Source: Acetobacter syzygii
Lineage (GTDB): Bacteria > Pseudomonadota > Alphaproteobacteria > Acetobacterales > Acetobacteraceae
Direction: 5' to 3'
Assembly: GCF_000964225.1 (NCBI RefSeq)
Contig: NZ_BAMZ01000003.1
Span: 62,001-126,000, forward strand
DNA: 64,000 nt
Within the stretch, counting starts at the first letter, position 1. Each line of letters begins with the position of its first letter. The notes beneath the pieces were generated by a model that ran no database searches, had not been told where the DNA came from, and was given only the letters and a program-made list of their open reading frames with translations. The position numbers and the translations under genes were made by a program. Positions 20,039 through 24,473 of this stretch are shown here, piece after piece.

Positions 20039-20989
20039 GTGAAACCACGTCTGCTACGTTCTACCCTCAGCACGTTTCTGGGTATCAGTCTGCTTGTCGG
20101 GCCGTTGGCCTTACAGGCCGATGCCCGGCCCGGTCAGGGTGGGTCCATGGGAAGCCGTGGTAGCCACACATGGAGTGCGCCACCTGTTACGCGAACAACG
20201 CCTTACAGCACAGCCCCCATGGAACGCTCCATCACCCCCCGCACGGCACCAACAACTCCCGGCTATGGCGCACCACAGATGGGAGCCCCCTTTGCCCGGC
20301 CCATGGGCTACCCGAACCGCCACCCATTCCTGACCGGTCTGGCTGGCGGCTTTTTGGGAGCCGGACTGTTTGGTATGCTCAGCGGCCACGGCTTTATGGG
20401 TGGAATGCACGGATTTTTCAGCTTTCTGGGACTTCTGGTCCAGATTGGTCTGGTGGTCATGGTTATTATGTGGCTGGTACGCCGCTTTGGCCGTGGCAAT
20501 GCTGGCGGCAGCAGCTTTGGCATGGCACCGCAGCGCAGTGCAACTGGTCCTACGTCTGCCGCTCCGGCGGCGGGTGGCGCACCCATCCAGATTACAACGG
20601 CTGATTATCAGGCATTCCAGCAAACGCTTATGGATATTCAGGCGGCATGGAACCAGCAGAACATTCCGGCTTTGCAGCAGATGGCAACAGCCGAAATGGT
20701 CTCCTACTTCAACGAACAGCTGGCAACACTTGCCAGTCAGGGCGCGCGCAACGTTGTGTCCGACGTACGCTTCCTGCAAGGGGATCTGGCTGAAGCATGG
20801 CGTGAAAACAACATGGACTACGCCAGCGTTGCCATGCGTTACAGCCTGATTGACCTGACGACCAACGCCACCGGGCAGGTGATTGATGGCAGTTCAACCA
20901 ACCCTGTGACCATTACCGAAGTCTGGACGTTTGTCCGTCCTTCTCGCGGTGGACGCTGGCTGCTTTCAGCCATTCAGCAGGCGCGGTAA
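20039..20989 (+). CDS. Tim44-like domain membrane protein
   Basis: 316-aa protein starting at GTG 20039. A signal-like N-terminal segment (about residues 8-28) is followed by a Pro/Thr/Gly-rich stretch (30-95), a glycine-rich hydrophobic region and a membrane span (FSFLGLLVQIGLVVMVIMWLV, about 127-147). The C-terminal soluble domain (about 185-316) is of the Tim44-like class seen in the mitochondrial import motor: ADYQAFQQTLMDIQAAWNQQ and WTFVRPSRGGRWLLSAIQQA. The bacterial role is unclear; envelope transport or assembly is possible. It is 24 bases after pmbA and is followed by a strong terminator. Confidence 0.85.
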   Translation: MKPRLLRSTLSTFLGISLLVGPLALQADARPGQGGSMGSRGSHTWSAPPVTRTTPYSTAPMERSITPRTAPTTPGYGAPQMGAPFARPMGYPNRHPFLTGLAGGFLGAGLFGMLSGHGFMGGMHGFFSFLGLLVQIGLVVMVIMWLVRRFGRGNAGGSSFGMAPQRSATGPTSAAPAAGGAPIQITTADYQAFQQTLMDIQAAWNQQNIPALQQMATAEMVSYFNEQLATLASQGARNVVSDVRFLQGDLAEAWRENNMDYASVAMRYSLIDLTTNATGQVIDGSSTNPVTITEVWTFVRPSRGGRWLLSAIQQAR

Positions 20990-21020: not shown

Positions 21021-21053
21021 ACCGCCATTCCAGATCGGAATGGCGGGTTTTTT
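21021..21053. terminator. Bidirectional rho-independent terminator
   Basis: A perfect 10-bp stem, CCGCCATTCC (21022-21031) and GGAATGGCGG (21037-21046), has T-runs on both sides. It lies between the convergent Tim44-like gene and the cta genes and should stop transcription from both directions. Confidence 0.92.
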
Positions 21054-21254: not shown

Positions 21255-22214
21255 TCAGTGCATCCATATCTGAAAGAAGTGGTCGCCTAGCAGGCCACAG
21301 AACAGAAAAAACAGATAAGCCAGTGAAAAGCGGAAGGATACACGCGCCGCTTTATCTCCCTTCTGGCTAACCCCATTTGCGTCTTGCGGTTCCAGCAGTA
21401 CGCGCACCGCGCAAGCTACAAACCCAAGACCGAGGACAATGGCTGTGACTGTATAAATCCACCCGCTTGCACCAACAAACGACGGGATAAGAGACACAGC
21501 CAGCAGAACCAGTGTGTAAATAAAAATCTGCCAGCGTGTATGCCGCACGCCACGCACCACAGGGAGCATGGGAATACCGGCGCGGCCATAATCCTTGCAG
21601 GCATACAGCGCCAATGACCAGAAATGCGGTGGCGTCCAGAAGAACACAATGCCAAACATAACAACAGGCATAAGCGCCATATGGCCGGTGGCCGCGGCCC
21701 ACCCGATCATGGGGGGGAATGCCCCAGCGGCACCCCCAATAACAATATTCTGTGGCGTAGAGCGCTTGAGCCACATGGTGTAGATGACAGAATAGAAGAA
21801 AATGGAAAACGCCAGAATGGCAGCTGCCAAAGTGTTGGTCGCAATCCACATAAGACAAACAGACAGGCAGGAAAGCCCAACTCCGTAAGCCAGAGCCTCG
21901 TTCTGCGGAATACGGCCAGAAGGCACCGGACGTGTAATGGTCCGCTGCATGACCGCATCTATATCCCGGTCGTACCACATGTTAATGGCCCCGGCAGCGC
22001 CCGATGCCAAACAGATGCAGAATATGGTAACCATGGCTACAAACGGGTTCATATGCCCCGGTGCCATAAACATGCCAGCAGCACCCGTAAACACCACCAG
22101 CGAGATCACCCGCGGTTTAAGCAGAGCCAGCCAGTCCCGCGCCTGCGTACCAACCTGCTCTGTTTTAAAACGTGGCCTTCTGGCCTGGGGAGCGGAAAGG
22201 CTTGCCTCGCTCAT
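21255..22214 (-). CDS. ctaB: Protoheme IX farnesyltransferase (heme O synthase)
   Basis: 319-aa UbiA-superfamily membrane enzyme that adds a farnesyl group to heme B to give heme O for heme-copper oxidases. The first Asp-rich motif NMWYDRDIDAVMQRT, VFFWTPPHFW and the second motif YGRAGIPMLPVV are intact, across about nine membrane spans. It overlaps the upstream subunit-I-like gene by four bases. In an acetic acid bacterium the heme O would serve a bo3-type ubiquinol oxidase. No oxidase structural genes other than the ligand-less homologue are nearby. Confidence 0.95.
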   Translation of the reverse strand: MSEASLSAPQARRPRFKTEQVGTQARDWLALLKPRVISLVVFTGAAGMFMAPGHMNPFVAMVTIFCICLASGAAGAINMWYDRDIDAVMQRTITRPVPSGRIPQNEALAYGVGLSCLSVCLMWIATNTLAAAILAFSIFFYSVIYTMWLKRSTPQNIVIGGAAGAFPPMIGWAAATGHMALMPVVMFGIVFFWTPPHFWSLALYACKDYGRAGIPMLPVVRGVRHTRWQIFIYTLVLLAVSLIPSFVGASGWIYTVTAIVLGLGFVACAVRVLLEPQDANGVSQKGDKAARVSFRFSLAYLFFLFCGLLGDHFFQIWMH

Positions 22215-23479
22215 GCGGATGTTCCCCTCACAGTCTGCAATACGGCAGCCCCGTTGCGGGTGCTGTGTACAGGAATGTCACGCTGGAAGCTTATAAACGC
22301 TGCCAGCACAAACGCCAGAGCCGCCACACCAAACAGTGCACAGCCCATAACCTGCATGGCTGGAACAAAAAGGCAGAGTGTAGCCGCCGCCGTAAGCACA
22401 AAATGCAGCCGGGCAAGTTTTTGCGGGTACCAGAAGCCGCAGGCTTCCCCCCGCCAGAGATAAAACCCACCGCACACGGCATAAAGCGCACCAAGCTGCA
22501 ACGCAGGGTGCAACCCTGCCCCCTGCACAAGTTGCACAACCCAGCCGCCTGCAACCACAGCCAGAAAACCCATACCCCACAGTAATGGCGTACGCAGGGC
22601 GACCCGCGCCTTCCATGTTCCTGCAAGCCACAGGCCAGCCAGACAAACGGCGGAAAGGGAGCATACACCCAGCAGCACATTCCCAACCATTTGCGCGGTT
22701 TGGCTATCAGCACCATGGGCAAGACTGCTTTTTGCCCATGCCACAACCCCGGAGGCTGCGGTTGCGGCCATAATATAGGCAACAGGGGCTGTTTTAACCT
22801 GCCCGATCCGGGTGGCCATTTCAAACACAATCCCAAACCCTGCCAGCAACACAATCAGACCAACAGGTGCGGCAAAATACTCGGCACCGACAACTGGATT
22901 ATAAGCTGACCACAGCCAGCTCCGCACGGTTGCTGCGGCAAAAACCGGTACCGTCAGCAGCAGCACAATAGCGGAGAGCATTTCCCCCCAGACAAAAGGG
23001 GAAAACGTTGTTTGTTCGCGGCTATCTGCGCAGCTATCAAAAATAGTCGTCAGCAGCACCATTGCCGAGGTCAGCGCGCCCAGCGACCAGAGCATATTAG
23101 CCAATCGGGCATCTGCCAGTGTGCAGGTCAGCACGGCGGCAACAACCAATATAGCAATAGATGCCAGATTAAGCCGCCCCAGCAGCATATGCTCACGCCC
23201 CAAAGCGCGGGGCAGCCAGAGTGTACCAAAACCGCCAACCAGTGCGGGCACCACAACATAAAGCAGCATCAGAGCCGGATGCGCCTGCGCCAGACGCCCC
23301 CACACCCCAGAAGCCGGTAACATGCCCAATCCGGCCAGAACCGAGGCACCACCCCCAACAAGAGCCGCAGTAGCAGCAAGCAGCAGATAGGCTGTTCCCG
23401 CGGCAGAATCCTGCCGCTGATGAACAGTTTTATGCTCTGTTACCAAAGGGGCGTTAAGCTGGCTGTGAGCGGAGATCAT
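22211..23479 (-). CDS. Heme-copper oxidase subunit I-like protein lacking catalytic ligands
   Basis: 422-aa polytopic membrane protein (about 12 spans) that lines up with cytochrome c oxidase subunit I along most of its length: GTAYLLLAATAALVGGGASVL (span 1), HPALMLLYVVVPALVGGFG (span 2), RTPLLWGMGFLAVVAGG and GFWYPQKLARLHFVLT. The first heme ligand position is still His (H67). The GHPEVY motif is replaced by APVGLI around 204-210, the CuB His pair by KS around 250-251, and the segment with the final two His ligands is deleted after about H324. The frame is complete and overlaps ctaB by four bases. It cannot be an active oxidase; a scaffold, heme-handling role or slow decay are possibilities. 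Confidence 0.8.
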   Translation of the reverse strand: MISAHSQLNAPLVTEHKTVHQRQDSAAGTAYLLLAATAALVGGGASVLAGLGMLPASGVWGRLAQAHPALMLLYVVVPALVGGFGTLWLPRALGREHMLLGRLNLASIAILVVAAVLTCTLADARLANMLWSLGALTSAMVLLTTIFDSCADSREQTTFSPFVWGEMLSAIVLLLTVPVFAAATVRSWLWSAYNPVVGAEYFAAPVGLIVLLAGFGIVFEMATRIGQVKTAPVAYIMAATAASGVVAWAKSSLAHGADSQTAQMVGNVLLGVCSLSAVCLAGLWLAGTWKARVALRTPLLWGMGFLAVVAGGWVVQLVQGAGLHPALQLGALYAVCGGFYLWRGEACGFWYPQKLARLHFVLTAAATLCLFVPAMQVMGCALFGVAALAFVLAAFISFQRDIPVHSTRNGAAVLQTVRGTSA

Positions 23480-23633: not shown

Positions 23634-24329
23634 TTATTCTGGCAGATTTTCCAGCGTAACCAGTGTAAAAAGGCCAAAAGGCTGAACCGGCTGAATATAG
23701 GCGCGTGCAATATCTTCCCGCGGAAGAAGCGATTCCATGGCAAAATCAGGGTGCCAGCCGAGCGAGTGAGAAGCGCGCGCCATGGCGTGCTCCACAGCCC
23801 CACGAATGCCGCCAGGTGCCAGAAAGTGATTAACAAACAGAATATACCCACCCGGACGCACAACGCGCTTGAGTTCGCGCAGCAGTTTACGCGGATGGGG
23901 CACAACTGACGCCACAAACATGGCGACTGCAATATCAAAAGAATTATCTTCGAACGTGGTTTCTTCCGCGTCCATTTCCAGCAGGGCTGTTACATTCGCC
24001 AGACTGTCGCGCTTGGCGCGTTCGCGGGCTTTGGCCAGCATGTCTGTTGAAAGGTCAATGCCGGTAATGGCTTTGGCCTGAGTGTAATGTGGGAGCGCAA
24101 GACCTGTGCCCACTCCGACTTCCAGCACGTCCCTGCCGGGCAGCCCATTGACCGCGTCCACCGCCCGCAGGCGACCAAAACGGGAAATACCGCCAAAGGC
24201 CACGTCATAAACATTGGCCCAACGCCGATAGGCCACCTTGACGGCCTCCGCATCCAGCGCAGAACGCGAGGGAGGAGGTACCGGGCTTTCCCCTCCGCCG
24301 GAGGGGTATTCTTGGAGAACGTCACTCAT
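23634..24329 (-). CDS. pmtA: PmtA-type phosphatidylethanolamine N-methyltransferase
   Basis: 231-aa class I SAM methyltransferase. The region YRRWANVYDVAFGGISRFGR and SAM motif VLEVGVGTGLALPHY match the Rhodobacter-type PmtA group, which methylates phosphatidylethanolamine stepwise to phosphatidylcholine; such an enzyme has been described in Acetobacter aceti. A UbiE-like quinone methyltransferase is the main alternative. The frame is open from 24431; ATG 24329 is chosen, and ATG 24356 is also possible. The gap of about 150 bases to the subunit-I-like gene shows no gene. Confidence 0.78.
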   Translation of the reverse strand: MSDVLQEYPSGGGESPVPPPSRSALDAEAVKVAYRRWANVYDVAFGGISRFGRLRAVDAVNGLPGRDVLEVGVGTGLALPHYTQAKAITGIDLSTDMLAKARERAKRDSLANVTALLEMDAEETTFEDNSFDIAVAMFVASVVPHPRKLLRELKRVVRPGGYILFVNHFLAPGGIRGAVEHAMARASHSLGWHPDFAMESLLPREDIARAYIQPVQPFGLFTLVTLENLPE

Positions 24330-24473
24330 GTTCTCTCTCTGCCCGCTGACGGACATTTCTTCAAGAGCCACTATACTCTCTTCCTTCCTGCTTGCCGCAC
24401 ATGCCACAAAAGCGTCCTTGTGTGGCAGCATACTTTTCCCGGCATGGTACCGCCCAACAGACCCGGACCGCGC

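Follow-up and report, generated by a model that had tools for sequence, protein, structure and literature searches.

A former oxidase gene upstream of ctaB in acetic acid bacteria has lost the oxygen-reducing centre while keeping both low-spin heme ligands

The window, a stretch of 64,000 nucleotides from Acetobacter syzygii, carries on its minus strand a gene of the cytochrome c oxidase subunit I (COX1) family directly upstream of ctaB. Around the junction of the two genes lie the following features.

21022..21046, minus strand: terminator-like hairpin 3' of ctaB, a consensus match only; the plus strand is also terminator-like here, for the convergent Tim44-domain gene
21255..22214, minus strand: ctaB, heme O synthase (TIGR01473, 329.8 bits against a cutoff of 210.3), the sole CtaB match in this genome
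22211..22214, minus strand: ATGA, where the ctaB start overlaps the stop of the COX1-like gene; the same overlap is found in 65 of 77 loci
22211..23479, minus strand: ligandless COX1-like gene, a ctaD descendant, with an uninterrupted frame of 422 aa and 12 predicted transmembrane helices

The original prediction had placed an intact COX1-family gene here and described its four-base overlap with ctaB, and both are present: the frame is uninterrupted, and Pfam COX1 (PF00115) matches residues 27-381 of the product (E 5e-15, 55.7 bits against a cutoff of 34.8). This match and the conservation of the gene exclude a chance open reading frame. The COX1 score falls under the cutoff in some relatives (G068, G030, G190 and G019), and with the NCBIfam CtaD_CoxA equivalog (TIGR02891) the protein reaches 54.9 bits against a curated cutoff of 670.75, which leaves it outside that group. 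The best match among solved structures is a plant COX1 chain (E 7.7e-20). AlphaFold2, supplied with 50 sequences of which 12 were canonical CtaD, gave a model with 12 transmembrane helices (pLDDT 84.5, pTM 0.85), and the 50 Foldseek matches listed for it are oxidase subunits, for example Rhodobacter 2gsm_C (E 6.6e-11, TMq 0.78); the product of 22211-23479 is predicted in this way to have the 12-helix COX1 fold. A promoter scan returned 4 sites where 2.2 were expected, none of which was accepted as a promoter. At the other 12 ctaB junctions, 10 loci have an in-frame start before the stop, not at ATGA, so that the overlap is unsure, and 2 have a gap.

We aligned 34 homologues of the window's genus code and one canonical CtaD with MAFFT L-INS-i, and the alignment was grown to 78 and then 97 homologues by adding other genera. 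Residue roles follow the Paracoccus numbering (H94, H413, H411, H276, H325 and H326), in which H67 corresponds to H94 and H324 to H413; in the Paracoccus copy compared here the HPEVY His is residue 273, the HH pair 322/323 and the His of HFH 408/410. The positions that matter below are these.

23279..23281, minus strand: codon of H67 in helix II, at the place of the first low-spin heme ligand; His in 97/97
22988..22990, minus strand: codon of W164, invariant Trp; 97/97
22736..22738, minus strand: codon of W248, invariant Trp, two positions N-terminal to the lost CuB His pair; 97/97
22511..22522, minus strand: helix IX-X junction, residues 320-323, from the alignment and the predicted helix limits
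22508..22510, minus strand: codon of H324, the second His of HFH in helix X, at the place of the second low-spin heme ligand; His in 96/96 complete sequences

The oxygen-reducing centre is gone. In the 422-aa protein HPEVY has become APVGL and the CuB pair HH has become KS, replacements already noted in the original prediction. Among the 34 homologues, His occupies the three CuB positions in 0, 2 and 0 sequences and the heme a3 position in 0, and the cross-link Tyr is found in none. The wider set of 78 retains the first CuB His in 0, the second in 28, the third in 0, the cross-link Tyr in 0 and the heme a3 (high-spin) His in 1; among the 96 complete sequences the first CuB His and the cross-link Tyr are again at 0, the second CuB His is at 31%, the third at 5% and the heme a3 His, in a gappy stretch of the alignment, at 2%. 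The second CuB His is thus kept in some members, and the full CuB set in none. At the helix IX-X junction canonical CtaD has 15 extra alignment columns, including the HNTYY segment and the heme a3 His. The segment holding the last heme and CuB His had been described as missing, which is right for these 15 columns, HNTYY and the heme a3 His but not for the second His of HFH, which survives as H324. Likewise, the description of the gene as devoid of its catalytic ligands applies to the oxygen-reducing centre and not to the low-spin site. Compared with a catalytic subunit I, the protein has the low-spin His pair and lacks the high-spin heme His, the CuB His trio and the cross-link Tyr.

Both low-spin axial His survive, which is the main point and was absent from the original prediction. 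The H67 and H324 columns are His in 34/34 homologues, and each of the remaining seven His of the 422-aa protein occurs in 1 to 24 of the 34, so that relocation of ligands to other positions, for which an alignment check had been proposed, is excluded; the two low-spin ligands stand at their usual places. The 97 distinct sequences, which come from 21 genus codes of the Acetobacteraceae plus records named Acetobacter, Gluconacetobacter and Komagataeibacter (a named genus can also stand under a code), form 79 clusters at 90% identity and 31 at 50%, and both His are present in all 79. The least similar pair among the 96 is 15% identical. Of 253 columns that are invariant in 14 canonical CtaD, a mean of 26% is retained in the 96 complete ligandless sequences and only 4 stay invariant, namely the two low-spin His, W164 and W248; the chance of two named columns both falling within 4 of 253 is 1.9e-4. 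Canonical CtaD has 13 invariant His columns, and the two low-spin His are the only ones kept. Since the ligands of the other heme of the same protein have been lost, this retention comes with an internal control. Against a heme at this site, the two Arg that pair with the heme propionates in canonical CtaD are lost, with Arg in 0/34 and 0/96.

Of the sequences in these counts, 30 loci (19 ligandless, 8 canonical and 3 without a COX1 ORF) were added by mafft --add --keeplength. L173, cut at a contig end, was left out of the helix X counts, which gives 96 rather than 97; three of the 8 canonical loci, L207, L209 and L213, cut short, were left out of the W164/W248 and invariant-column counts; and a split copy (L053/L088) was left out of the count alignments, the longest L088 piece entering only a recount, in which its helix II column is a gap. 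A further 30 named loci without HPEVY stand outside the 97. Of these, 27 match an aligned copy exactly over the last 380 aa, L068 adds one more copy with both His, L088 is the split copy, and L143, a 559-aa frame, belongs to another phylum.

Given these ligands, the COX1-like protein probably binds one low-spin bis-His heme. The heme would be of type B or O, because heme A synthase is missing from about half of the carriers checked. With the oxygen-reducing centre removed and the low-spin site kept, the product would be a one-heme membrane protein, and the kept bis-His site speaks for a protein that handles heme or is stabilised by it rather than for an empty scaffold. A heme or O2 sensor that controls expression of CtaB or the oxidase through the membrane would suit a single heme beside heme O synthase, but in the predicted model helix XII (373-400) is followed by a short tail only and there is no soluble output domain, so we consider this the most improbable reading of all.

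The gene has been met before in Acetobacter. It appears as a "deranged COX1-like protein" in PMC10715153, which cites Matsutani 2014, states that all metal-binding residues are lost and reads the protein as inactive or as a structural stabiliser of CtaB. That published "all" does not hold: judging from the alignment, two heme ligands are invariant across the group, and both are also present in A. pasteurianus LMG 1262 (L073). APT_01775 of strain SKU1108 and the subunit I gene APA386B_609 of strain 386B adjoin ctaB (APT_01774 and APA386B_608) and go under the names ctaD, incomplete or deranged; we take them to be the same gene. Elsewhere the gene is called an incomplete cytochrome c oxidase (PMC3751514) and listed as ctaD (PMC5158111), ctaB and ctaA are described as functional remnants, A. 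pasteurianus CtaB being functional (PMC6915089), and Bombella intestini is said to have no cytochrome c oxidase genes (PMC5112900). The gene goes unmentioned in the passages covered of PMC6431628 and PMC4013037. In the literature listings and passages covered, we found no report of the kept low-spin heme ligands and no expression or deletion study of the gene.

The original prediction held that the gene is kept rather than decayed, with neutral dN/dS and frequent frameshifts in relatives as the signs to the contrary, and neither sign was found. For 25 of 26 close pairs, which share sequences, have many dS values near or above 1 and use frames trimmed to the last 405 aa, the NG86 dN/dS of the COX1-like gene has a median of 0.101 (range 0.057-0.222); the pair dropped by the dS filter has a dS of 2.03 and a ratio of 0.110. 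The medians of neighbouring genes are 0.026 (CtaB), 0.049 (the UbiE-like gene) and 0.044 (GshB), two to four times lower, and the COX1-like gene has a mean distance of 1.67, where seven neighbours have 0.34-0.62. The gene evolves fast yet under purifying selection, and the constraint is clear. The frame is open in 97 of 98 copies, one of the 97 being cut by a contig end. The exception, from A. papayae (L053/L088), is split over three frames; at 8.8-16.7 kb of the same contig the PmbA and ThrC frames are split too, so draft errors are the likely cause, not real decay. The profile matches of G019 and G145 carry one and two TGA, at or after the ends of frames of 419 and 430 aa. Neither relaxed selection nor broken frames mark the gene as a pseudogene.

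These data bear on the reading of the gene as a decaying ctaD leftover, retained only because its 3' end overlaps ctaB and may couple its translation. The fast evolution, the raised dN/dS and the one split copy speak for it, and the abstract of Matsutani 2014 reportedly puts the loss of function of ctaD down to accumulated mutations, with ctaB and ctaA working in E. coli. A dN/dS of 0.06-0.22 is nevertheless far from 1, nearly all copies are open, both heme ligands are retained non-randomly, and coupling would require the 3' end alone, not 12 helices. We regard a decaying leftover as very unlikely.

The locus and the tree indicate descent from ctaD, which excludes a horizontal origin. In a tree of 43 ligandless and 17 canonical sequences with one CyoB as outgroup, built by a quick method without bootstrap and with four long end branches, the ligandless form is one clade (SH-aLRT 99). 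Among the 78 ligandless loci long enough to annotate, the UbiE-like gene is present in 78, GshB in 77 and CtaB in 77; the Tim44-PmbA-M16-ThrC block is found in 50, and the other 28 are without all or part of it within the stretch. The family member L180, the clearest of nine canonical loci (the rest share fewer flanks), has at the same place Tim44, with PmbA, M16 and ThrC, facing ctaB-coxA-coxB-UbiE-like, and its ctaB, coxA and coxB each exceed their NCBIfam cutoffs; coxB has therefore been lost and coxA altered in place. The old aa3-oxidase ctaD of acetic acid bacteria would have stayed at its site and been remodelled, the simplest course being a single change in their ancestor.

The gene shares with CtaD of the alphaproteobacterial aa3 oxidase, a family A heme-copper oxidase, the predicted 12-helix fold, both low-spin His and the site upstream of ctaB, with the same neighbours on both sides in L180. 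Unlike CtaD, it lacks the heme a3 and CuB ligands, the cross-link Tyr and the K-channel Lys; the Glu of HPEVY is lost in 34/34 sequences of the window's genus code, while in the wider set roughly one sequence in three still has Glu there; it has no COX2 or COX3 of its own in the window genome; and it has 422 aa against 538 for the canonical CtaD of L180. CyoB, subunit I of the bo3/ba3 quinol oxidase, belongs to the same superfamily and is encoded in the same genome, but in a separate gene cluster.

The window genome (2.68 Mb in 94 contigs, with an estimated completeness of 100%) contains one CtaB match, one CtaA match, no match to CtaG/Cox11 and, in the COX1 family, two matches: the COX1-like gene and a CyoB-like one. 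Its one COX2-family and one COX3-family match both lie at the cyo locus on contig C68. Among the aa3 genes looked for, therefore, only the COX1-like gene, ctaB and ctaA remain. We also considered a free-standing b-type protein, with no relation to CtaB, that carries electrons between quinol and an assembly step or an acceptor in the periplasm. Electrons enter COX1 at its low-spin heme, and the bis-His site with the invariant W164 and W248 would serve such a carrier; against it, there is no COX2 partner other than that of the cyo locus, and the gene is always beside CtaB where the contig allows. We judge it improbable.

In 41 genomes chosen by hand, many for a profile match or its absence and so not a random sample, the ligandless gene is present in 23. 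All 23 carriers have a CtaB match of at least 425 bits and a CyoB-like COX1-family frame of 662-711 aa, and CtaG/Cox11, the CuB chaperone, is found in 0/23. CtaA is missing in 11/23, so heme A is not the link. Six genomes (G012, G016, G089, G126, G130 and G176), in which matches to the CtaB model are weak and UbiA-like (36 bits or less), lack CtaB, the CyoB-like match and the ligandless gene altogether, although joint loss within the group is clear only for G012 and G016, the only two that bear the window's genus code. G062, G094, G136 and G257 have neither CtaB nor the ligandless gene, G141 has a CyoB-like frame with no CtaB match above 32 bits, and canonical CtaD occurs in G160, G070, G122 and G066. 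CtaB is also found without a ligandless-profile match in G238, G091 (at a contig end) and G110, and ctaB without an upstream COX1 ORF at L212 and L214 (L211 ends at CtaB), so that CtaB is not generally dependent on the ligandless gene. The CtaB of A. pasteurianus, reported as functional (PMC6915089) and reportedly shown to be so in E. coli, likewise counts against a need for the ligandless gene. The sole COX1-family match of G089, G126 and G176 is a frame of 785-833 aa (E about 1e-41 to 1e-42), which we take to be the length of a quinol NO reductase.

The main rival to a heme-handling role is that the fold only holds CtaB in the membrane, any heme being a folding aid. Such a stabiliser, already suggested in PMC10715153, agrees with the adjacency to ctaB in 96 of 97 aligned copies (the remaining one is cut by a contig end), the ATGA overlap, the predicted 12-helix fold and the joint absence with CtaB in six genomes. 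Adjacency is nonetheless weak evidence of partnership, because it is inherited from the old operon, and rate covariation of the COX1-like gene with CtaB beyond the genomic background was null (partial r -0.125, 47 loci), where COX1-GshB gave 0.35 and other pairs up to 0.62. A plain scaffold also leaves unexplained why the sole invariant His are the two low-spin ligands while the rest drifts (median identity 26%). We think it rather unlikely.

Our preferred reading, at a probability of about 0.5, is that the gene encodes a COX1-derived one-heme membrane protein that works with CtaB in the supply of heme to the bo3/ba3 quinol oxidase. The operon and the presence/absence pattern suggest, at even odds, that it works with the CtaB made alongside it. 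It would take or hold heme B or heme O at CtaB or, alternatively, heme would help it to fold as the membrane partner of CtaB; in the outcome, CyoB would receive heme O, or heme A through CtaA. The role of the heme is the least certain part of this mechanism. The low-spin heme of COX1 can be inserted with no CuB chaperone, in keeping with the lack of CtaG in the carriers. The earlier proposals of a scaffold, heme O carrier, CtaB partner or regulator may still apply. That the proteins form a new class of one-heme cytochromes that dock on heme O synthase and pass heme B in or heme O out is a tentative and doubtful extension, and the same holds for its other part, a dedicated heme transfer for quinol-oxidase assembly across acetic acid bacteria. 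To our knowledge no dedicated heme-transfer protein is known for the step from heme O synthase to the oxidase. CtaA-CtaB complexes are reported in PMC9145763, which describes E. coli bo3 as having no known assembly protein except heme O synthase.

Because the oxygen-reducing centre is gone and the two anchors of the other heme are kept, the data suggest an oxidase gene turned into a one-heme helper, perhaps of heme O synthase, rather than left to decay. The claim of complete metal-ligand loss is corrected, and a supposed fossil becomes a candidate heme protein. If one heme is bound, the protein would be a natural "half oxidase" in which, for the most studied respiratory fold, the function of the low-spin heme could be told apart from that of the oxygen-reducing centre. 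Should it serve CtaB, it would offer an entry to a poorly known step, the passage of heme O to the oxidase.

Some further observations concern the locus and its relatives. The upstream gene at 23634-24431 (minus strand) is a Pfam methyltransferase with a UbiE match, and its L180 counterpart matches best, below the cutoff, a phospholipid N-methyltransferase (PmtA) model. The Tim44-domain gene at 20039-20986 (plus strand) converges on ctaB and occurs close to the ligandless gene in 52 of 78 loci. A plasmid search gave 19 matching records, none of which reached 80% query coverage; among the 10 listed, 2 are without annotation and the annotation of the other 8 reads cytochrome c oxidase subunit I. 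The five earliest-branching ligandless sequences (L200, L197, L202, L165 and L169, one with an end branch of 2.3) keep both His and would be well suited to reconstructing in which order the ligands were lost.
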